Below, one piece after another: positions 16,138-20,531 of a stretch of 64,000 nucleotides of DNA. The DNA is from Ancylobacter sp. IITR112. GTDB taxonomy: Bacteria > Pseudomonadota > Alphaproteobacteria > Rhizobiales > Xanthobacteraceae. The DNA is taken from contig NZ_JBGCUS010000001.1 of the NCBI RefSeq assembly GCF_041415945.1, positions 2,666,001 to 2,730,000 of the forward strand. Direction: 5' to 3'. Position 1 is the stretch's first letter; each line of letters starts with the position of its first letter. Under the pieces are notes generated by a model. It ran no database searches, was not told the DNA's origin, and saw only the letters and a program-made list of their open reading frames with translations. Made by a program: the position numbers and the translations under genes.

Positions 16138-17559
16138 TCAGCGCAGGCCGGCCTCCACCAGCGCGGCGCCTTGACGCGCCGCCACGCTCTCGACCGTGAA
16201 ATCGGCGATCGCTTCCTCGAACAAAGCGTGGAAATTCAGCTCCGCCTTGAGGTGCAGGAACACCCCGCCAAGGCCGATGGCGGCGCGGTCCATGAAGACG
16301 AATTCGCGCGGCACCCGCACCGGGCCCTGTTCCTTCAGCGCGCGATGCACGGTGAAGGCCTCGCGCCGGCCATATTCACCCGGCGCCACGCCATCGGCGA
16401 TGGTGCGGACGCGATCGTCGAGCAGCGGGCCATAGATGAAGCGAGCCCAGATGTTGAGCACGTCGATCAGCGCGCGCGAGAGGCCGCGGAAGCCCCAGAC
16501 CTCATAGGCATGGACGATGCGGGCCTCGTCCCCCGCCTGCAGGCCGCGATAGAGATCGACCACGCCGCCGACGAAGCTGGGCGGGAAGATGCGGATGCAG
16601 CCATAGTCGAGCAGGTTGATACCGGCCGGCGACGCCTTCTCCCCGCCCGCCTCCTCGAACACGGTGTAATTGCCGAGATGCGGGTCGCCATGAATGACGC
16701 CATAGCGCGAGAACGGCCCCCACCACGCCGCGAACATGGCGCGGGCGATGGCGTTGCGCTCCTCGAGCGAATGGTCGACGAAATCCAGCAGCCGCCGGCC
16801 CTCCAGCCAGTCGAGCGTGAGCAGGCGCCCGGTGGAGAGGTCGGGATGCACGCGCGGCACCCGCACCATCGGCTCCTGCGCCAGCATGGCGGCGTAGAGC
16901 CCGGCATGGGCGGCCTCGCGCTTATAGTCGAGTTCCTCGCGCACCCTTTCGCCGATTTCCTCGGCGATCTCCACCGTGTCGATCGCCGGGTCCATGCGCC
17001 TATGGATCGCCAGCAGCACGCCGAGCTGCCGGAGATCGGCCTCCACCGCCGACTGCATGTCGGGATATTGCAGCTTGACCGCCAGAGATGTGCCGTCGAG
17101 GGCGCGGGCGCGGTGCACCTGGCCGAGCGAGGCGGCGGCGGCGGGCTCCTTGTCTAAAGAGAGGAAGCGCGCCTGCCAGTCCGGGCCGAGCTCGGCCACC
17201 ATGCGGCGCTTGACGAAGGCCCAGCCCATGGGTGGGGCCTGGTTCTGCAGCGTGGCGAGTTCCTTGGCGTATTCGGGCGGCAGCGCGTCGGGGATGGTCG
17301 CCATGAGCTGGGCGACCTTCATGATCGGCCCTTTCAGCCCGCCGAGCGCCGCGGCGAGCGCGGCGGCGTCGCCCTGCTTCGCGCCATTGCCGAACAGGCG
17401 GGTGCCGGCCATGCGGGCGGCGACGCCACCGACGCTGGTGCCGACGCGGGCATAGCGCAAAGCGCGGGCGGACAGGCGGTTGGCTTCGCGGTCGGGAGAA
17501 TCGGTCAAGGCAGCCTCGCGGGATGGCCCATCACTTAGGCCGAACCGGACGCGCGGCAA
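16138..17559 (-). CDS. ABC1/AarF-family atypical kinase
   Basis: The protein of up to 473 residues belongs to the ABC1/ADCK kinase-like family: the N-terminal helix motif KVAQLMATIPDALPPEYAKE (family KxGQ-type region), the Ala-rich loop AAASLGQVHRA, VAVK-like LAVKLQYPD, HGDPHLGNY and the metal-binding LLDYG. Relatives support ubiquinone synthesis or lipid homeostasis by ATPase activity; the substrate here is unknown. It is a different clade from the UbiB protein at 40441. Start uncertain: TTG at 17559 or TTG at 17508. Confidence 0.9.
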   Translation of the reverse strand: MPRVRFGLSDGPSREAALTDSPDREANRLSARALRYARVGTSVGGVAARMAGTRLFGNGAKQGDAAALAAALGGLKGPIMKVAQLMATIPDALPPEYAKELATLQNQAPPMGWAFVKRRMVAELGPDWQARFLSLDKEPAAAASLGQVHRARALDGTSLAVKLQYPDMQSAVEADLRQLGVLLAIHRRMDPAIDTVEIAEEIGERVREELDYKREAAHAGLYAAMLAQEPMVRVPRVHPDLSTGRLLTLDWLEGRRLLDFVDHSLEERNAIARAMFAAWWGPFSRYGVIHGDPHLGNYTVFEEAGGEKASPAGINLLDYGCIRIFPPSFVGGVVDLYRGLQAGDEARIVHAYEVWGFRGLSRALIDVLNIWARFIYGPLLDDRVRTIADGVAPGEYGRREAFTVHRALKEQGPVRVPREFVFMDRAAIGLGGVFLHLKAELNFHALFEEAIADFTVESVAARQGAALVEAGLR

Positions 17560-19055: not shown

Positions 19056-19136
19056 TCGGCTGGCAGGCGCGGACGGCGCCCGCGCGGCCACAGCTTAGAA
19101 CCTGTGCAGGCTTTTCGTCAGCCCAACTTTTCGCCA
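19056..19136. repeat. 81-bp direct repeat, copy 1
   Basis: Identical to 19716-19796 over 81 bases; the match stops at C/G on the left and A/G on the right. It contains a 5-bp dyad CACAG/CTGTG around CTTAGAAC and two direct CTTTTCG motifs 16 bases apart, features that could form a recombinase site. Confidence 0.95.
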
Positions 19137-19168
19137 ACGGTACGAGAGGCGGAGAAAAACCACGAGGA

Positions 19169-19606
19169 CTAGCCGATCAATTCAATCTCCGGAAAAGGTT
19201 GGTAAACAGCCTCGCGACAATGCGCTTCTATCTGGCCTGCGAAGTCAGGACCGGACAGAACCAACTGAATTTGCTCACCATTGAATGCCAGCAACGTCAA
19301 TTGCTGACCAGCATAGGCACCCATCCTATTTTTAGCGTTAGCCCGAATACATACAATCCAGGCCGACCTCGGAATAGGCGTTTGTCCATCAAAAATATAA
19401 TTTACATACAATGGGTTAGAAATGTAAGCATCCCGAACGCTATATGGATCGAAAAACGATGCGCGCACTTCCGTAACAGCGATTTCTCTATAACCTTGAG
19501 GTGGCGGACCCATTTCAGAAATAGATGAATTAGATGAATTTGTATTACAGCCAATCAACAATGCCGCGAGCGCCAAAGGCGCGATCTTCATGATCGGGTG
19601 TCGCAT
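19169..19606 (-). CDS. Small lipoprotein carried by the cassette
   Basis: A 145-residue protein with a lipoprotein signal (KIAPLALAALLIGC, lipid-anchored Cys20), a Ser/Asn-rich linker and a compact domain with DPYSVRDAYISNP, WIVCIRANAKNRMGAYAGQ and LSGPDFAGQIEAHC. The DPYS..RDA and CxRxNAKN pattern recurs in small alphaproteobacterial lipoproteins of unknown function (from memory). Codon use is AT-rich and unlike every neighbour, which points to recent acquisition. ATG 19606 or 19591. It is the only gene of the 660-bp cassette. Confidence 0.85.
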   Translation of the reverse strand: MRHPIMKIAPLALAALLIGCNTNSSNSSISEMGPPPQGYREIAVTEVRASFFDPYSVRDAYISNPLYVNYIFDGQTPIPRSAWIVCIRANAKNRMGAYAGQQLTLLAFNGEQIQLVLSGPDFAGQIEAHCREAVYQPFPEIELIG

Positions 19607-19715
19607 TGATGACTAACTCATCTAGAAACCTCGCAAGGTTACAATTACGCGACTCTGAGACGCGGAACGCAACTCTTAATTTTGGCAAAATCTCGAAAGG
19701 TCATTTATCCGCATG

Positions 19716-19796
19716 TCGGCTGGCAGGCGCGGACGGCGCCCGCGCGGCCACAGCTTAGAACCTGTGCAGGCTTTTCGTCAGCCCAACTTTTCGCCA
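19716..19796. repeat. 81-bp direct repeat, copy 2, overlapping the IMPACT gene 3' end
   Basis: Identical to 19056-19136. The IMPACT stop codon (19778-19780) and its last six codons fall inside it, so this copy is probably the original chromosomal site or its reconstituted form. Confidence 0.95.
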
Positions 19797-20421: not shown

Positions 20422-20531
20422 TTAGGGCATTTCACTGTTTCATGGAAACAGTGAAATGCCCTAACTCTTTCTTTTGTCGCGTTTTCTTCACGCGAACCGG
20501 TATCCACTTCGCTCGAAAACGCTCTAGAGCA
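20422..20531. repeat. Composite intergenic repeat: 20-bp hairpin plus rhizobial palindromic motif, copy 1
   Basis: A perfect 20-bp stem (20422-20441 with 20445-20464, loop ATG, core ATTTCACTGTTTC) is followed by a conserved tail holding ATCCACTTCGCTCGAAAACG and the palindrome GCTCTAGAGC. A related copy with a degenerate hairpin is at 54684. This family is dispersed in Rhizobiales genomes (from memory). It fills the space between the DUF4010 and IMPACT genes. Confidence 0.85.

Follow-up and report, generated by a model that had tools for sequence, protein, structure and literature searches.

Genes inserted between long direct repeats of their target were described in Helicobacter pylori as "insertion with long target duplication" by Nobusato et al. 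(2000, Gene 259:99-108), a work that is also among the references of PMC3077401; according to the available passages of PMC3031569, PMC1643837, PMC4978471 and PMC3154945, the cargo is frequently restriction-modification genes, and the duplications are long and variable. Small variable segments in three bacterial species, as excerpted from PMC2884548, are species-level small inserts of which 10–18% are repeat-flanked, most of the repeats being <30 bp, and the repeats flanking indels in Haloquadratum are mostly <20 bp in the excerpt of PMC3119063.

The locus considered here lies in a stretch of 64,000 nucleotides of Ancylobacter sp. IITR112 (NZ_JBGCUS010000001.1, positions 2,666,001 to 2,730,000), the whole of which is called the window and supplies the position numbers. 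Most single-gene gains leave no trace of their route, whereas here an empty site in relatives, native outer flanks and a second example make the entry of a gene readable. The insert is of interest in that its genome shows two events of this type, and it bears on a question raised in 2000, namely the origin of long target duplications around recombinase-less genes.

The repeat pair, its insert and the empty site

Two 81-bp copies at 19056–19136 and 19716–19796, both assigned to the minus strand, are 100% identical with a start-to-start spacing of 660 bp, exactly as the sequence-only reading of this DNA had claimed. An exact repeat of this kind would be far beyond chance expectation. At E ≤ 0.001 the block has just these two copies in its own genome (40 of 56 first-look candidates scored), and a window-wide repeat search (seed 16, length ≥30, within 6 kb) yields one other direct-repeat pair (34 nt, 76%, separated by 3.5 kb) and none besides. 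The enclosed 579 bp (19137–19715) are considered foreign from their composition and from the search of genus DNA described below: GC is 0.44–0.50 in 300-bp windows within 19150–19749 versus about 0.61–0.75 around. The earlier description of GC-poor DNA with one lipoprotein gene is likewise confirmed, a single ORF of 145 aa (19169–19606, minus strand) with a lipoprotein-type start, MRHPIMKIAPLALAALLIGC, filling most of the insert, while further ORFs of at least 40 aa are short or enter from outside.

Both native neighbours of the insert are encoded on the minus strand. A HODM_asu-like gene (haem-dependent oxidative N-demethylase alpha subunit-like, PF11927; 18107–19045), hereafter HODM, has its start codon 10 bp from the left copy, which forms its upstream region. 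The right copy is upstream of the lipoprotein gene, on the same strand, and includes the end of an IMPACT-type gene (PF01205, PF09186; 19778–20413). The right copy had been said to contain the IMPACT stop codon and last six codons; the stop is indeed inside, but the shared 19 nt amount to the stop, five whole codons and one base. Beyond the IMPACT gene, a perfect 20-nt inverted repeat with a 3-nt loop occupies 20422–20464, and the stretch that follows it, to about 20535, resembles what we take to be a dispersed intergenic repeat of Rhizobiales.

A search of 60 relatives for this region supplied 27 HODM loci, each taken with flanking sequence of up to 1.5 kb at either end. IMPACT adjoins HODM in two of the 27, in genomes G009 (locus L004) and G002 (L005), and in both a single copy of the 81-bp block lies between HODM and IMPACT without insert, so that the predicted insertion with an empty single-copy site is borne out in two relatives. 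Alignment at the HODM upstream region comprised 13 of the 27 loci. The outer flank of the left copy, GCACGCTTCGATG, continues to the HODM start just like that of L004 and almost like that of L005. The outer flank of the right copy (CAC, then TGGCGAAAAG) continues as in L006 and L007, the last C alone being common to L004 and L005, and the inner flanks of both copies show no continuation as in the 13 aligned relatives. Native outer flanks combined with non-continuing inner flanks indicate duplication of the target on either side of the insert. Of the two outer flanks, the right one is weaker and is shorter than in G009 and G002, the distance from the last aligned IMPACT residue to the block being 14 bp in the window versus about 80 bp (G009) and 60 bp (G002), which suggests a small deletion before or with the insertion, or bases gained by the relatives.

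Among 30 genomes of the genus that were searched, DNA of the insert is matched once, in its own genome, and in none of the 29 others. The 81-bp block is matched in 16 of the 30, with two full copies in the own genome alone (at most 30 candidates scored per genome in both counts); a second match in G021 covers 32 bp at another place, and the sole match in G022 covers 28 bp away from HODM. Full-length block matches in relatives are 78–86% identical, i.e., 14–22% different. Two outcomes had been named as fatal to the idea of an inserted cassette, an insert-free relative already carrying two repeats and a repeat that is only an unrelated duplicated promoter segment; neither was seen, and none of the 29 relatives combines absence of the insert with two repeats (at most 30 candidates scored each). 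As read from these alignments, the entry event at 19056–19796 is an insertion, the order of events being what parsimony would give, and the insertion with long target duplication is real and probably recent.

The block contains a core, GGCTGACG-N7-TGCACA-N-GTTCTAAGCT, recognized by its conservation before HODM and located on the minus strand at 19092–19123 in the left copy and, 660 bp on, at 19752–19783 in the right copy, where it precedes the start codon of the lipoprotein gene by 145 bp. The core is present in 16 of the 27 HODM loci, where it lies about 45–82 bp ahead of the HODM start; 13 loci have at most one change in it and three have three to four, and the other 11 have no core at a limit of 5 changes. 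The remaining 62.9 kb of the window contain no match on either strand. The core is also kept upstream of HODM where IMPACT was not found as a neighbour, and the 81-bp block is therefore most simply a HODM control region and not an IMPACT gene-end site. The conserved core is thus a probable, putative promoter or regulatory site of HODM. A promoter and terminator scan that used a sigma-70 consensus was without useful result and found no sigma-70-like promoter, so that a promoter is something we infer. The IMPACT protein has 211 aa here versus 203 aa in G009 and G002, where its stop precedes the block by 72 bp and 51 bp, respectively; overlap of the stop with the repeat is seen in this lineage alone and results from a differing IMPACT tail. 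The proposal of integration at the IMPACT gene end is not supported, the repeat being the HODM upstream region. A CACAG/CTGTG dyad in the repeat, suggested as a possible crossover site, was also rejected, both arms being present in none of the 13 aligned relatives.

The lipoprotein gene and its phage relatives

The lipoprotein matches the phage family phrog_2320 with E 5e-12, and a large protein set contains 72 relatives, the best having 56% identity over 95%. Relatives occur in Rhizobium phage P106B and Klebsiella phage KPP5665-2, on three Rhizobium plasmids, on 9 viral contigs and at 7 bacterial loci, one of which (L079) has the same gene map as a viral locus (L074). A tape-measure gene is adjacent to or within about 0.6 kb of the relative in 7 of the 9 viral loci; the other two (L072 and L075) gave no tape-measure match among nine neighbouring ORFs tested. 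The relative precedes an annotated tape-measure gene in KPP5665-2 and is not near the tape-measure gene in P106B. A place near the tape-measure gene is a common spot for a phage "moron" gene. A protein match to the lipoprotein was obtained in 15 of 101 genomes searched (own included), and within the genus the only relative besides the own genome is one in G023 at 41% identity, elsewhere in that genome. This G023 relative (C18:17071-17403, L034) has a GC of 0.65 versus 0.62 in its surroundings and is without flanking repeats.

Searches for the donor found the DNA of the insert unmatched in plasmids, phages being searched by protein alone; the whole region has partial plasmid matches, those listed (20 of 50 records) being to the IMPACT gene. 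Taken together with the relatives above, the inserted DNA is probably phage-derived. Pfam gave no match for the lipoprotein, NCBIfam a single hit far below cut-off, and one viral model without a name matches at E 6e-5. A good structure model was obtained (mean pLDDT 86.4 from a 22-member alignment).

HK97 gp15 and TP-J34 Ltp, as described in the accessible text of PMC10883804, are small membrane proteins or lipoproteins of temperate phages that act in exclusion and are linked to the tape-measure protein. Relatives of the present family are similarly often near a tape-measure gene, and this neighbourhood, together with the link of HK97 gp15 and TP-J34 Ltp to the tape-measure protein, suggests an exclusion function. 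Phage origin and a place near the tape-measure gene hold for the relatives and not for this copy. Unlike a member of a proven exclusion family, the lipoprotein has no sequence or fold link to such proteins in the searches made, which returned no chain from a PDB profile search, no Foldseek hit of the model in the PDB at E ≤ 0.001 and no PADLOC model. By analogy, the lipoprotein may act against infecting phages in the manner of superinfection-exclusion proteins.

A second insert and genome-wide scans

Direct repeats were scanned in 2.464 Mb of the 4.99-Mb genome (the window and 120 stretches, with 7,500 masked bases), counting exact pairs ≥24 bp long that are separated by >150 bp and whose starts lie within 15 kb of each other. 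For three of the 170 exact pairs, the GC of the enclosed DNA is below that of its flanks by 0.07 or more, namely for the 81-bp pair, a 24-bp pair that is presumably tRNA-like sequence, and a 73-bp pair at C1:1365778 and 1368250. The last pair delimits a second insert (C1:1365778-1368322, L145:5778-8322) in which exact 73-bp repeats enclose 2399 bp of GC 0.44 carrying genes for an FkbM-type methyltransferase and a Core-2/I-branching-type enzyme. The left 73-bp copy is formed by the 3' end of a response-regulator gene, and a convergent CobW gene runs with its end into the right copy. In G009 and G002 this second site has one copy, 14 bp longer inside, without insert and with both outer flanks continuing. 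The 81-bp and 73-bp units have no mutual similarity, and neither insert shows terminal inverted repeats. An unrelated duplication at an unrelated site argues for duplication of whatever target is hit and against a single attachment site.

In the left part of the second insert, L145:5851-6297 resembles by eye a remnant of an insertion-sequence transposase; G008 and G027 contain 78–85% matches to parts of it, and Pfam gave no match for the two ORFs tested there. In G009 and G002 the CobW gene directly adjoins the response-regulator gene, and in G019, G026, G023 and G028 the two are separated by 4.5–6.5 kb, with a putative ribonucleotide reductase gene between them. The reductase gene is elsewhere in the own genome and in G009, and G002 has no match to it. 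These differences in layout are a small rearrangement.

The counts speak against generality of such repeats. Of 116 GC-poor islets, 70 are in the tested size range, and flanking repeats are present in two of these and absent from 68. Likewise, 33 other lipoprotein loci have no exact flanking repeat >16 bp (longest 16 bp) when exact repeats of at least 13 bp are sought within 1.5 kb on both sides. Of the long direct-repeat pairs without a GC drop, six were inspected, five of them being within longer or multi-copy repeats. The sixth, at L115:15034-15128 and 17075-17169 (C1:175034-177169), is a 95-bp, 98% identical direct repeat, presumably the end of the reductase small-subunit gene, and it surrounds a chemotaxis-receptor-like gene of normal GC. 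The receptor gene is beside the reductase gene in G019 and G026, and G009 has one copy of the L115 repeat and no receptor gene there.

Routes of entry and comparison with known systems

The account that we favour, with moderate confidence, is insertion of a foreign 579-bp fragment between IMPACT and HODM with duplication of the 81-bp target through fill-in of a staggered break and end joining. A double-strand break with staggered ends of about 80 nt would have occurred in the HODM upstream region, both ends would have been filled in by a polymerase, and a stray foreign fragment would have been joined in by end joining. HODM would thereby keep its own copy and the second copy would end up upstream of the lipoprotein gene, with neither neighbour broken. 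To produce the observed scar, target bases must be copied to either side of DNA that lacks recognized ends of its own; fill-in of a staggered break with end joining is a fitting mechanism for this and, we infer, a likely one. With the second copy upstream of the lipoprotein gene on the same strand, a single insertion could have supplied the incoming gene with a host control region; the position of this copy is plain, and it could drive the lipoprotein gene. Ku is matched three times in the own genome, one match being partial, and in 25 of the 30 genus genomes, which is only permissive for such repair.

Certain considerations weigh against repair. Overhangs of 81 nt are long, the ends of the fragment cannot be checked because no donor DNA was found, and the 68 islets and 33 lipoprotein loci without such repeats speak against its generality. 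Template switching also leaves the same scar and fits nearly as well: a stalled fork would have copied foreign DNA and returned 81 bp upstream of its exit point, giving the same anatomy for any target length and making defined ends, inverted repeats and a recombinase unnecessary. We nevertheless regard it as rather unlikely, given that no microhomology can be demonstrated, the host and insert bases differing beside each junction, that its donor was not found either, and that lengths near 75–80 bp in both events would have to agree by chance, although so small a number of events limits this argument. Two further routes fit less well. In insertion-duplication by a single crossover, a circle bearing the gene and 81 bp of the host locus, e.g., from another strain, would have entered by homologous recombination, which agrees with the identity of the two copies; a repeat-flanked unit can excise and reintegrate by a single crossover. 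This route leaves the first joining of host bases to the gene unexplained, must draw its circle from very close kin in view of the divergence of the full-length block matches, and demands a second such circle for the second, unrelated site, all of which makes it improbable.

Integration at a specific site by a trans-acting recombinase, or decay of a prophage or integrative element until a single gene was left between attL and attR, is in keeping with the phage-type cargo and with direct repeats that overlap gene ends at both inserts. However, no integrase was recognized within either insert, the repeat was found in the genome as this pair alone, two full copies were found in none of the 29 relatives, the dyad is not conserved, and the two sites are unrelated; moreover, attP sequences would have to match the host at all of 81 and 73 bases, which is unlikely where host DNA varies by about a fifth from species to species, and we consider this route very doubtful. 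The earlier idea of a tiny mobile gene cassette moved by a trans-acting recombinase is not supported, the unrelated second site arguing against it, and the search for other cargo between such repeats found none in the own genome or the genus. A reused attachment site was rejected as well, no second full copy and no insert having been found in the 29 relatives. A recombinase gene was not found in the insert. A transposon, insertion sequence or MITE was rejected on the single genome copy and the lack of terminal inverted repeats, the best hit between the end 120 bp being 7 bp and not terminal. On present evidence, the 660-bp unit is not a mobile element. Least probable of all, the two-copy state would be ancestral and the relatives would have lost the gene by recombination between the repeats, a type of deletion described for Haloquadratum in the excerpt of PMC3119063; the insert is GC-poor and its DNA is confined to one genus genome, and copies identical to each other yet 14–22% off those of relatives fit a recent event in this lineage.

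With break repair thus preferred, its closest described parallel is eukaryotic. In mammalian cells, fill-in tandem duplications at staggered breaks are largely Ku80-dependent and their duplicated segment derives from the overhang, according to the available part of PMC8355091. The present case would share that derivation of the duplicated segment; the mammalian events differ in being tandem copies without the foreign insert seen here. Our literature search found no paper combining all features of bacterial fill-in insertion. Acquisition of foreign DNA by bacterial end joining is reportedly the subject of Dupuy et al. 2019, which PMC7719229 lists among its references. It is a tentative and, on balance, unlikely extension that short foreign fragments enter genomes of this genus by a repeatable route that needs no transposase and copies about 70–80 bp of the target each time. 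If so, inserts between genes would gain a copy of a host control or end region with both neighbours spared, the near-equal lengths of 73 and 81 would reflect a defined break or processing step and not chance, and phage exclusion genes would be among those domesticated by transposase-free capture. The locus points to a little-studied form of transposon-free gene gain, and with Ku as widespread in the genus as it is, the end-joining idea is directly testable.

Compared with the small variable segments excerpted from PMC2884548, this is similarly a small, repeat-flanked insert at species level, and it differs from most of those described there in repeats of 73 and 81 bp. The resemblance to insertion with long target duplication is closer. 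As in that class, the inserted gene has long direct repeats of the target at either end and is recognized by genome comparison; the orthologous site is empty, the repeat is native target with native outer flanks, and the repeats of 81 bp and 73 bp exceed the usual transposase duplications and vary between events. Restriction-modification genes are present in neither insert, a feature not taken as defining. The case is therefore one that shows the tested features of insertion with long target duplication and differs from the Helicobacter pylori cases in cargo, which is a phage-type lipoprotein here and two transferase-type genes in the second insert, and in host, a GC-rich bacterium with Ku genes.
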